A stretch of DNA of 64,000 nucleotides, from the NCBI RefSeq assembly GCF_037975245.1, contig NC_092580.1, forward strand, positions 20,446,501 through 20,510,500, given 5' to 3'. Origin of the DNA: Apostichopus japonicus. Its lineage: Eukaryota > Echinodermata > Holothuroidea > Aspidochirotida > Stichopodidae. The notes below the pieces were generated by a model. The model was not told the origin of the DNA. It did not search any database and was given only the letters and a program-made list of their open reading frames with translations. Within the stretch, counting starts at the first letter, position 1, and every line of letters starts with the position of its first letter. The position numbers and the translations under genes are program-made. This document shows, in pieces, positions 11,916-62,449 of this stretch.

Positions 11916-12623
11916 TTAATCCCCTGTTGTGTGTCTACTATTGTTTGACTGAATGTGATGGCTATAAGGATTATTTTTCACTTCCTCAACTTGTGTTAAG
12001 CTCTTTGCAGCTGCATCTTCATTTAGATTATCCACGGGCGTTGAAACACAATGGTCATTATAAATGCGTTTGCTGTATTCGTCATCTTCTTCAGAAATTG
12101 TCGGTCTTTGCTGCTTGCGGTCACTCTCGTGCGTCTCCTCGATTACCCTGCTCATGTTTCTCTTAGGATGTATCGGTAGTTGTTGCTCTTTCCCTGTTTC
12201 AAGGCTGATATCAGGCCCAGATTTCCTTTGAGCTGGATTTTCCAATATCAGTTGAAACCTTGACTTCAGTTGGAACAGTTCTTTTGCTCGATTTCTCTCT
12301 GGAAGTGTTGGTGGTTGTGCATCTGTTGCCGCTGTACTGCTGATAGATAAACTACAATATGTATGATCACTAACATTATCGTCATTCATTCCTGTTTTTC
12401 TGGATTTCTGTCGGGAATCCTTATAATAATAGGTATGGAGAACTGAGAGGGAACATCGATTTGTAGCTTTTAAATGATAAAGTACCAAAAGACAAAAGCA
12501 GAAGAGTACCACTGTGAGAGCACATGGAAGAATAACAATGATCAAAATAGGTAGCGCCAGAGTCTGGTCAGGGCCTAGGTACTCCACATGACCTACCACG
12601 AAGTTAAGGTTACCGTGCTGTAC
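11916..12623 (-). CDS. Gene B last exon: juxtamembrane, TM helix, short cytosolic tail, stop
   Basis: 235 codons, then TAA. The end of the last IPT ([17 protein letters not shown]) runs into a long hydrophobic helix ([20 protein letters not shown] and on) and then basic residues. The tail shows [14 protein letters not shown], a PxxPxR motif (PTLPER), an acidic [10 protein letters not shown] stretch and an NNPYSHH end. No GAP-domain sequence is seen. Compared with D, five codons (QDMDY) are deleted in frame. A 17-codon stretch (from about 12274 down to 12225) is read in another frame, because a 1-nt and an 8-nt deletion compensate each other. Confidence 0.93.
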   Translation of the reverse strand, partial: VQHGNLNFVVGHVEYLGPDQTLALPILIIVILPCALTVVLFCFCLLVLYHLKATNRCSLSVLHTYYYKDSRQKSRKTGMNDDNVSDHTYCSLSISSTAATDAQPPTLPERNRAKELFQLKSRFQLILENPAQRKSGPDISLETGKEQQLPIHPKRNMSRVIEETHESDRKQQRPTISEEDDEYSKRIYNDHCVSTPVDNLNEDAAAKSLTQVEEVKNNPYSHHIQSNNSRHTTGD

Positions 12624-15600
12624 CTGTCAATGAACAAGTGCAAATGAAAATAGTTATGTTGTGCATGTTAATTACTTTATCACGCTTGGCGTTTTGAGGG
12701 ACGTCCTGAAGGCCACACTCGTTATGAAGTAGTTTCATTTTGTTTTCACTCTTTTCTTGTTGATGTTTCACGTTCAACTTCACAAATTGGAAATAATTGA
12801 AGTTTTGCCAAAAAAATAGAACCTCAGCAAAAACGAAACTGTACAGCCGCAATTACTACTGTGTGTGTTACTCCAACGTAATTTGTCGACATTTTGAAAA
12901 ATATATAAAGCATACCTGCTTTCTAAGCACTTTTCTATTTATACAATTTAAATAATATATACCTGTACTTGGTGCACTCCTTCAGATAACTTGGGTGATT
13001 GACAAATCAAATAATTGATGAAAAGATTTGAGACAAAACATGCCTTGCCACCAATAATGACCGACACATCCTCACTGTTTGAAGCAAGAGTTAAATTGTC
13101 TCCCTGTCATAAAGAAAAAGATAGGACAAGTACAAGGACATGAACTAACATTTGGCTTAAAAGAAATTCGCCAACATGATACAGCGTAAGTTGTGCAGCG
13201 TCAGTTGGGGTTATAGATTGGACGCTAGGTGAGGGGAATTTGTTAAACCAACCCTAGGCCTGAAATATTGAGCAAAGTAAAGTAACAAACTAGTTTCAAG
13301 ACAAAGTGTTCTTAAGATAGGAAAAGAATGGTATCATATGTATAATCAAAAGCAACTTTCGCTTTAATAAAATACATACTTTACCTGTATCGTGATGTTG
13401 TACTGGCCTTGGAATTCGTTAGGTACTTTGATTATATTTTCGGCTGATGGTAAAAGGTAGTACACAGGGTCTTCGACAAATTCAAAAGCTGTTTTAAGGC
13501 TGCCAGGAAAAAACATTCCAAAGTTGATATAACGCGTCACACCGTCCATGTACAGACTGAAATTTGACGTCGGTAGTAGGAGAGGGTAGTCAGTTTGGGC
13601 AACGGAAATGTTTGGAGACTTGCAAATGAGCTTCATTGTGGAGTCGGAACAATTGGAACAATCCTGAAAGACAAAGAAAAAACAGCTATGGTATTGATAA
13701 AAAACAAAAAAACAAGCAAATGACTTAAATGCAAGATGTGATCACTTCGAAAATGGACGGTTTGTGCCAAAAGGTAGTGAAAAATTTGGAAAGAACATGC
13801 ATGCTTTGAATTTTTTTAAATTATAATGACAGTTTAAATCAAATCCCACATCTTTAAAGCAAAAAAAAGAATTTGCATTTTCTTGTCAACCAAGTTGAAA
13901 ATATTCCCCTTGGAAACGTACCCCAGAGACCGTATCAGAGCCAATTCTCACTTCCAACCGGGCTGTTTGGATGATGTCAAAAGATTCCCCCAAAATAGGC
14001 AGATCCAGACCACCACTGTTAACGGATAAGACAAATAGCAGACTGATATTAAAGTCACATCACTTCAGTATAAACTATCAAAGAGCTTGAATATATAATA
14101 ATGTGCAAGCGTATTTATTTCACAGTTTAAAGGGCATTCTGAAGACGGATGTAACACTCTGGTAAAAGTATTCTGCATTAGCTAATATTCCTGTTACAAG
14201 ATGTTGTTTCAAGATATAATTATTGGTGTTTGTTTGAAGTGAACTTCAACGAACTAAGGCATTGGTAACTGAAGAAAATGGCTGCTTGATAAAAAAAAAA
14301 ACTATATTGTCTTTGCGATAAAACCTCAGTCACACCACCGGCTGCTTCACTTAAAATGGTCAAACGGATCGCCCCCTCCCACCCCTTGTATATTCTAATA
14401 TTCGAAAATGAGATCTTCGAGAAAATTTTCTGGAACTGCTATGTTACCTTCTTCTCGACTTTGAGCTGTTTATTTTTGGTAGACCTTTGTTTTTATTTTA
14501 GTTTTTGGGAAACGATCTATTTCTCACAACACCTTGAACTGTGTCATAATTCCCCGCAAATTTTGCACTACCTTCACTGTGTTATTTGTTGAAGCAGCTG
14601 TAACCTAAATATTAGTTGAACTTTCTTTTTCTGTTAGTGCAGAACTGAACGCGGAATCACCTTTGATGGGCGTAACAACACATTATTGAGAACCCCGTAA
14701 ACATCACTTTAACATTCTCAATATTGTTTTGATATTGCAAACAGGAAAGTTGTGAGATGGAAATCAAGGCTGAATAAAAGAAAAAGTGATACTAACCTTG
14801 CAATGGAACTCAGTCTATCAAAACTATCAACGATGGGGTCTCCCAGATACGCGAATGTATCGCCATTATATTCACATCCCAAATCAAAATTGACAGAAAG
14901 TAGTAGATTGTCAGTAACACTTGCAGATCCAGTTCTACAAATGATTTCATCGGAATTATTTCTGTAAAATGTAACATGATTAAGAATTGAGTCATATTTA
15001 TTTATTTATTTTTGCTTAGTGTCCACGCGATTCATTTGGATTCCTATCTAGATCTACTTTGTAGTACCCAGTTTCATTAAATTTTTAAACAATTTATTCA
15101 TTAATATCATCGCCTGGACTCTATAAATGACAGGCTGAAAGAGCATAGAAACTGAGAAAGATGCTTGCAGTTGGTGCAAAACAACTTACTTTTACCGAAG
15201 AATTGTAAATGAAAAATGATACCACGCAGTTAATTACCAACAGGTTTACACACTGATCCGAAAAATAAGAGAGACTCACTCTTCTATCTTACAAGAGTAT
15301 CCGTCACCGGGAACACAAGGTGCCGTACTAATCATTACTGTCCGTGTCAGTCCAGAGTCTAACTTTCTACCTCTTATGACTAGTCTGGTACCTCCTGACC
15401 GAGGCCCTCTCGCAGGATAAACAAACAGAACTCTAGGTCTCTGTGTCGCGTAACAAGAAGTAACAAATTAGAAAATGAAATTTACTTACACTATTGATTG
15501 AATCAATCAGCACTATCACATTCTAAGACTAAACTTAACCGGGATTTACAAAACGTTAGGCATTTATTGCAGTACACGATGACCAAAATAGTAAACACTG

Positions 15601-61700: not shown

Positions 61701-62449
61701 GTAAATATGTTTAGCATTTTCAGATGTTTCGTTCCTAACTCGAGTACAATTATATTTCCTTTCGTTTATTCTTTACACTAATAATCAGAATCACAACCTT
61801 GTACATAATCGCTCCTTCTTTTTGTGGTCGTTGAAAACATAGAAAGTCCTTTCTCCTAGATTATCACAATTTAAGCTAAAAACTAGCAAGAAAGGAATCA
61901 AAATGAGCTTAATTGAGTTCTTTGCCTAAATCTAGTTTAACCATTCAGATAAAATGATCACCCCTCCTCTGGATATTTTGTTTGGGTATTTTATCTTTTT
62001 TCTTTCTGTTCTTTTTTTCTTCTTATAATAGTCAATATTTCACCAGGTTTATTCATAATGTATCCAGGTGGTTAGTAAGGGGGGGGGGGATAGGCTGAAT
62101 ATGGCCAGGATAGAAATACGACGGACCTTAGTTGCAAGGGATTTTGTAAATTGTTCCTATTAAGTGAGAAAATTTGGGGAACCAATGATATTAAATAATT
62201 ATACAGCATAATGGATAAATGATATCTTCATATTTACCATTCTGTTGATACTGTTATCATTGCGGCAGGTTTGCGTTCCATCAATGCACTGGTTGCTACG
62301 GAGACACCACTGGCAGCCATATTTGTTTTCAGCGCACTGTGAGCAGGATGCCAGTTGGGTACAATTGTAAAAGTCAAATGGAACGTAGGCGATATTCCGA
62401 CTGTGGTCGGCTTCCTGGTAGTGCAACTGTAACTCAACGGTTCTGGATC
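51995..62449 (-). CDS. Plexin-like receptor D, 3' part (E7-E19), mosaic
   Basis: Thirteen exons, high to low: 62238-62449, 61403-61495, 60704-60805, 60189-60279, 58133-58344, 56723-56865, 56099-56210, 55565-55725, 55086-55250, 54181-54274, 53632-53910, 53070-53210, 51995-52726. They encode PSI2 to the stop. The phases continue from E6 (carry of 1 nt) and agree with B and C, so D is open as far as seen. E1-E6 (Sema, PSI1, IPT1) are not in the window. E7-E11 are clearly diverged from B and C (for example CGMCLSINERFNCSWCPQLN), while E12-E19 are nearly identical to C. The tail is the longest of the three, about 193 residues, with [18 protein letters not shown] and the full NNPYSHY end, and again has no GAP domain. 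Confidence 0.92.
53398..53545. repeat. Small D-specific intron insert
   Basis: About 145 bp in the E17-E18 intron, absent from B and C, where AACAAACTAGTTTCAAGAC is continuous. No terminal repeats were recognised. Confidence 0.55.
57253..57300 (-). pseudogene. Relic 3' end of a second PSI3 exon (B/C type)
   Basis: 48 bp reading [14 protein letters not shown] with a preserved GTAAGC donor, as at the end of E11 in B and C. Homology stops abruptly at 57300 and there is no acceptor. The intact diverged E11 lies at 58133-58344. It marks the junction between the two halves of gene D. Confidence 0.85.
57301..58132. other. Unique sequence at the D mosaic junction
   Basis: It does not match the homologous introns of B or C. 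No exon was recognised. It is presumably intron of the older 5' half. Confidence 0.5.
58345..60188. other. Intron E10-E11 of gene D
   Basis: Apart from the 30-bp minisatellite at its right end I see no gene or recognisable repeat here. Confidence 0.55.
59841..60003. repeat. 30-bp tandem minisatellite
   Basis: About five units of GATCAGGGATCATTCAGGGT plus about 10 bp, the inner ones well matched and the outer ones decayed. The 30-bp period keeps a plus-strand frame open, which is why it reads as repeated IRDHSG peptides; this is not taken as coding. Confidence 0.92.

Follow-up and report, generated by a model that had tools for sequence, protein, structure and literature searches.

The minus strand of a 64,000-nucleotide stretch of the sea cucumber Apostichopus japonicus (contig NC_092580.1, positions 20,446,501 to 20,510,500; hereafter the window) carries three plexin-like genes in tandem, B (11916-30657), C (32994-48567) and D (51995 to beyond the window end), together with a relic, A. 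The observation that these tandem genes end without the GTPase-activating protein (GAP) domain of plexins is real and beyond chance. We read the array as tandem holothurian plexins that have a complete ectodomain (Sema, three PSI and six IPT domains) and a transmembrane (TM) helix, and no GAP or Rho-binding domain (RBD). They most likely lower the semaphorin signalling of a full-length plexin, both as decoys and as dominant negatives, and we give this reading a probability of roughly 55%.

11916..29422, minus strand: copy B, GAP-less plexin gene, 19 exons, exact spliced match to the annotated protein P0001 ('plexin-A4-like')
32994..48567, minus strand: copy C, GAP-less plexin gene, 19 exons, exact match to P0002 over exons 1-18, TM exon open
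51995..62450, minus strand: copy D, exons 7-19 of a GAP-less plexin gene, exact match to P0004 over exons 7-15, all 13 exons open
6989..9343, minus strand: copy A, degraded relic with parts of exons 1, 2, 6 and 7, found by self-comparison and tblastn of B
12471..12554, minus strand: B transmembrane helix, placed by position in the alignment of the three last exons, whose first row, D, carries the predicted helix; tail and stop lie in the same exon
33516..33599, minus strand: C transmembrane helix, placed by position
52574..52657, minus strand: D transmembrane helix, from structure prediction and position

Three open plexin-like genes and a relic

Self-comparison of B, C and D gave ten aligned blocks longer than 1 kb at 88.7-94.9% identity, and two more blocks involved A (83-84%). 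We searched a protein database with a preliminary model of gene B; among the matches listed, the best was P0001 from A. japonicus. P0001 fits B exactly in 20 exons with GT-AG at 19/19 junctions, which correspond to the 19 exons of the original prediction plus one upstream. The 19-exon model of B runs from a first exon at 28234-29422 to a last exon at 11919-12623, with a stop at 11916-11918, and is open over 1476 residues. P0002 ('plexin-A3-like isoform X2') fits C exactly in 19 exons, 18 of which (48567 down to 34012) are common to the predicted model. If the last exon of P0002 is replaced by the TM exon, the reading frame of C stays open over 1469 residues and stops at 32994-32996. D comprises 13 exons from ~62450 to 51998 that encode 845 residues without a stop, followed by the stop at 51995-51997. 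P0004 ('plexin-A4-like isoform X2') fits D exactly from P0004 residue 673 on, and the residues before 673, or D exons 1-6, were not found within the window. These exact matches and the open TM exon confirm the original prediction of tandem plexin-like receptors with B and C open across all 19 exons: B, C and D are plexin ectodomain genes in a row, D as far as the window reaches. Copy A, downstream of B, contains in-frame stops and deletions, and tblastn of B left the later B exons unmatched below position 6989.

P0001, P0002, P0004 and a full-length plexin, P0005 (1908 aa), are each listed on a contig of 35,493,775 bases; we take the array and P0005 to be on one chromosome. Two more proteins, P0003 (contig of 211,282 bases) and P0006 (contig of 399,837 bases), are likewise without the RasGAP model PF08337. 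P0006 has a tail subtype of its own (67% to the last part of B), and its sequence suggests at least one more copy. P0003 and P0006 were left out of the segment identity counts and trees given below.

Ectodomain and transmembrane end

We ran Pfam and solved-structure searches with P0001 as the query. Sema, PSI (two stretches) and TIG_2 and TIG (three stretches) scored above the Pfam cut-offs, and TIG_plexin (21.8 of 22.7 bits) and PSI_PlexinA-B (20.9 of 25) fell below theirs. B aligned with the solved Plexin-A4 ectodomain over chain residues 18-1200 of 1207 (E = 6.8e-133). Pfam and this alignment together bear out the predicted plexin plan of Sema, three PSI and about six IPT segments, the count of six IPT coming from the Plexin-A4 alignment. 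No kinase domain, as in the Met-LP receptor tyrosine kinase plan, was found in P0001 by Pfam.

The three copies were also expected to have in common a last exon that encodes the TM helix, a tail and a stop, and they do, with tails after the TM of 182 (B), 171 (C) and 190 (D) residues. The structure predicted for the D last exon has a single helix at residues 19-73, confident only over ~24-50; the predicted local distance difference test (pLDDT) score was at least 70 over ~26 TM residues. The tail had no confident structure (mean pLDDT of the model 47.4), and the missing fold is weak evidence given an alignment of three sequences. The last exons matched only DUF3481 in Pfam, below its cut-off.

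The array lacks detectable GAP and Rho-binding domains

A hidden Markov model (HMM) of four plexin cytoplasmic regions was searched against the six-frame segments of the window of at least 20 residues. None of the 2121 segments reached E < 1e-3, and six gave weak values (E 2.8-10). An ectodomain HMM used as a control found 54 of the segments, and a leave-one-out cytoplasmic HMM built from three plexins found 11/12 fifty-residue pieces of the P0005 cytoplasmic region. With tblastn, the cytoplasmic parts of P0005 and P0008 found nothing in the window better than E = 1.1 and E = 0.29, respectively. Pfam detected neither the RasGAP (PF08337) nor the Rho-binding domain (PF20170) in P0001. The positive control P0005 carried both (Plexin_cytopl, E = 4e-153; Plexin_RBD, E = 2e-32).

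The Pfam PF08337 model was run on P0001, and the spacers were covered by the cytoplasmic HMM and tblastn. For C and for D, no more than ~3.6 kb separates the gene end from the Sema exon of the next gene downstream, so that their GAP exons would have hardly any space there; for B, the search covered the 11.9 kb downstream to the window end. A GAP match in the spacers had been named beforehand as one of the results that would speak against the prediction, and neither the HMM nor tblastn gave one. The claim of plexin-like receptors without detectable GAP or RBD thus holds by tblastn, HMM and Pfam on P0001.

Sequence evidence for exon exchange with a full-length plexin

P0005 is a full-length plexin of the A type with the same ectodomain plan as B, and it differs from P0001 in having Plexin_cytopl and Plexin_RBD. 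Over Sema and PSI1 (exons 1-4), B and P0005 were identical at 429/491 residues (87%), as alike as B and C (434/491, 88%). The remainder of B and P0005 is far apart: identity was 160/288 in exons 6-11 and 197/362 (54%) in exons 12-18, compared with 255/290 and 344/364 for B and C. Exon 5, which lies outside the three segments, was 76% identical between B and P0005 and 87% between B and C. The contrast between Sema+PSI1 and exons 12-18 in the B-P0005 pair was pronounced (P = 4e-27, Fisher test). The same contrast between B and P0007, a 1480-aa protein of Holothuria leucospilota annotated as 'Plexin-A4', was far smaller (307/486 vs 120/225, P = 0.014), which argues that constraint alone is not enough for the likeness of the heads. 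These comparisons indicate that the array exchanged exons with a gene of the P0005 type.

Identity between P0007 and B was 46-63% in the three ectodomain segments and did not clearly exceed that between P0007 and P0005; in this part of the protein, P0007 and B are perhaps not closely related. In the trees of the three segments its placement was weakly supported in two (59 and 52), so the trees do not fix the age of the split.

Copy D joins the two kinds of sequence:

58133..62450, minus strand: D exons 7-11, full-length-plexin (P0005) type, 88-97% identity to P0005 vs 54-68% to B
51998..56865, minus strand: D exons 12-19, B/C type with TM and GAP-less tail; in exons 12-18, 339/364 residues identical to B vs 194/362 to P0005
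57248..57300, minus strand: scar in D intron 11 at the recombination junction, the 3' end of a B/C-type exon 11 with donor kept and no acceptor, from DNA alignment

The synonymous divergence (dS) of D from B or C was 1.05-1.28 in exons 7-11 and only 0.07-0.075 in exons 12-18; the first value covers, for D, the part of the exon 5-11 segment inside the window. We scored D at the residues that are the same in B and C but different in P0005. In the numbering of the B model, it was mostly P0005-like at ~501-880, with a mixed stretch at 551-600, and B/C-like thereafter. Before residue 501, outside the window and from P0004 only, D was B/C-like at most informative sites. The P0005 type in D spans exons 4-11, with exons 4-6 known via P0004 only. 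On this evidence D is, as judged from its sequence, a chimera of P0005-type and B/C-type parts. The original prediction had D agreeing with B and C from exon 7 on; the match to B/C begins only at exon 12. Its proposal of a distinct class applies to the 3' half of the genes, and fails for the Sema head, which is common to a full-length plexin, and for the chimeric D.

A tail probably in common with Holothuria

We compared the tails with that of P0007, which like the array has no Plexin_cytopl and carries MDYMTI and NPYSDRI in its tail. The D and P0007 tails gave a local score of 99, which none of 1000 shuffles reached (47.5 ± 7.9). The B and C tails were weaker, with 26/1000 and 9/1000 shuffles as high. 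In control comparisons with the D tail, 92 windows from six other proteins scored at most 40 and the reversed P0007 tail scored 41. A tail HMM built from B, C, D and P0006 and run on 14 proteins matched P0007 (E = 0.0021, 7.6 bits, bias 6.6; best domain 11.3 bits, E = 1.5e-4), and the GAP plexins among the 14 all fell below threshold. BLASTP of the D and P0007 tails, with a search space of one pair, gave E = 0.001 with composition correction and 7e-9 without it. Four tyrosines align between the two tails, which 6/500 shuffles also reached. Two tyrosine motifs recur in the five full tails:

52430..52447, minus strand: tail motif MDYLSI of D, the same in C and similar in P0006 and P0007
52031..52051, minus strand: tail motif NPYSxxI of D, common to B, P0006 and P0007 and lost in C

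The first, MDY[LFM][ST]I, is found in C, D, P0006 and P0007 (4/5) and is deleted in B. The second is present in B, D, P0006 and P0007 (4/5), and C ends early. NPYSHHI is still readable in frame beyond the C stop, at 32975-32995, which suggests that C probably lost its tail end recently.

A protein-database search with the tail returned three proteins, all from A. japonicus and without a link to Holothuria. When the 3' part of P0007 was used, the matches listed held, besides P0007, only the full-length P0005, and the A. japonicus GAP-less proteins were absent from them. Because the database searches did not link the species, the case for tail kinship comes from pairwise alignment and the tail HMM, whose values for P0007 are modest. 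A. japonicus belongs to the Stichopodidae and H. leucospilota to the Holothuriidae. The origin of GAP-less plexins carrying such a tail therefore probably predates the split between these families, although P0007 is a predicted model and part of its ectodomain is missing.

The tail could also act by itself. The receptors would then signal through MDYxxI and NPYSxxI, which we take to be adaptor-recruiting motifs (SH2-type after phosphorylation, or AP-2 via YxxPhi), and would drive internalisation or a GAP-independent signal. The D-P0007 score, the HMM match and the aligned tyrosines favour this, but we find it doubtful: the B and C scores are weaker, the two database searches gave no link between species, each motif is absent from one copy, and the roles of the motifs are our assumption. 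The ratio of nonsynonymous to synonymous divergence (dN/dS) in the tail also speaks against it, at 0.85 (B-C), 1.31 (B-D) and 0.39 (C-D), close to neutral in the pairs that include B. Such fast evolution fits an anchor, and the common tyrosine motifs would allow for uptake or signalling.

The same erosion of the B and C tails, the stops in relic A and an ectodomain dN/dS of 0.45-1.12 between B and C might instead mean that the copies are decaying duplicates of little function, held open by youth and by exchange with a functional plexin. This is unlikely, as B, C and the visible part of D are still open, the ectodomain dN/dS of D vs B or C is 0.22-0.49, and Holothuria too has a predicted GAP-less form.

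Proposed action as decoy and dominant negative

Class A plexins are reported to pair head to stalk in inhibited dimers, Sema with the partner's PSI2-IPT2 (PMC4980550), and plexin signalling is reported to require two intracellular parts together (PMC7181871). An engineered plexin-A2 without its intracellular domain has served as a dominant negative and inhibits proliferation (PMC9852426). By analogy with these precedents, natural GAP-less forms should hold a ligand or partner without signalling, and the Sema head in common with a full-length plexin lends the idea support. As decoys, the near-identical heads would take up the semaphorins of P0005, either membrane-bound or in TM-less splice forms. 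As dominant negatives, the GAP-less forms would join P0005 in dimers unable to bring two GAP domains together. D, with its P0005-type PSI2-IPT2 stalk and head, would be the best candidate for direct pairing with the full plexin; B and C, with the same head but a diverged stalk, would act mainly through the head. Ligand sharing, pairing and inhibition by the GAP-less plexins are what we infer from these likenesses.

The annotated isoforms of C, in which the TM is skipped, and of D (P0004), in which exon 16 is skipped and an early stop follows, would be soluble; both are predicted transcripts. They bear on one more alternative, in which the intact ectodomain would act as a ligand, its Sema head engaging transmembrane semaphorins of other cells to evoke reverse signalling in them. 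Reverse semaphorin signalling is known, but the predicted soluble isoforms fit a decoy better, and we regard such a ligand role as very unlikely.

Several points weigh against the decoy and dominant-negative reading. P0005 is itself only a predicted protein. The tail motifs kept in common with Holothuria suggest more than an anchor. The copies decay, as seen in relic A, in the missing tail end of C and the missing MDYLSI of B, and in the near-neutral tail dN/dS where B is involved. A study of fly PlexB reported that the catalytic residues of its GAP were dispensable in the processes tested, with residual GAP activity not excluded by the authors (PMC6597256), so GAP loss need not mean loss of signalling.

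Relation to known GAP-less plexins

The original prediction knew of no described tandem family like this one; that such a receptor is undescribed is not supported. The sponge Amphimedon queenslandica is reported to have truncated Plexin-A1 to -A4, four copies beside two full-length plexins (PMC6374515). Like B, C and D, these are plexin-like with a short intracellular part without conserved domains; the available text of that survey describes no tandem array, exon exchange or tail homology for them, and we liken them by description only (PMC6374515). The array has the ectodomain, TM helix and short tail without a known domain that define a truncated plexin. GAP loss was likely independent in sponge and sea cucumber. 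The 2019 survey also reports plexin expansion in a starfish and, earlier, in a sea urchin, and its available part does not treat sea cucumbers (PMC6374515). A short form of Plexin-B1 has been proposed as a decoy (PMC1838422); it is a form of one gene, in contrast to the separate tandem genes here. We rejected as an equivalent the 49-copy 'plexin domain-containing' cluster of Schistosoma mansoni, whose likeness, as far as the available text goes, is a PSI domain match only (PMC10900676).

We screened literature matches for plexin with sea cucumber or holothurian, GAP-less plexins and gene conversion. None of the matches listed described an array of this kind, judged by title and start of abstract, with most subscription journals outside the scope of the search. 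By that search, a 2026 genome preprint on extended gene families in Holothuria glaberrima does not mention 'plexin' (PMC13228809). The kind of receptor is known, and novelty appears to lie in its tandem arrangement in a sea cucumber, in the exchange of heads with a signalling plexin and in the likeness of the tail to Holothuria.

Paired activating and inhibitory immune receptors, which belong to other protein families, have near-identical ligand heads that are kept alike by exchange and carry different tails. It is possible, and we propose it tentatively, that the array is such a paired-receptor system. Recurrent gene conversion and exon exchange would keep the heads of a GAP-less bank matched to that of the signalling plexin, the 3' half and tail of the bank would have stayed separate since before the Stichopodidae-Holothuriidae split, and combinations like D would arise by recombination between the two kinds.

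A GAP-less set with heads exchanged with a signalling plexin is a natural experiment on an ectodomain acting alone and on tuning by inert partners. A. japonicus regenerates its gut. The plexin domain plan is held to be conserved (PMC6374515), and plexin-A4 has been reported on starfish coelomocytes (PMC13409769). Gut regeneration and coelomocytes would make the proposed brakes testable in a relevant setting.

Further features of copies B and C

30536..30657, minus strand: upstream first exon of annotated B (P0001 residues 1-41)
29284..29352, minus strand: hydrophobic leader of B, likely signal peptide and true start, placed by position and judged by eye
33316..33369, minus strand: alternative last exon of C in isoform X2 (P0002), exact spliced match; an internal acceptor skips the TM and predicts a soluble ectodomain

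The annotated start of P0001 in the upstream exon places the hydrophobic leader at ~residue 65, and translation from 29352 would begin with an ordinary signal peptide. A 49-base exon (13176-13224) in the preliminary B model was false and was replaced by the annotated structure. In self-comparisons, the B intron stretch 22589-24998 had no counterpart in C and is probably an insertion. In the C intron at 39637-41113, a 95% direct repeat (39637-40063 and 40205-40642) is accompanied by an inverted copy. A match to the type I hammerhead ribozyme lies on the plus strand at 40657-40698 (38.8 bits), and a tRNA-Tyr-like sequence on the minus strand at 41040-41113. Together these may be a retrozyme-like or another mobile element.

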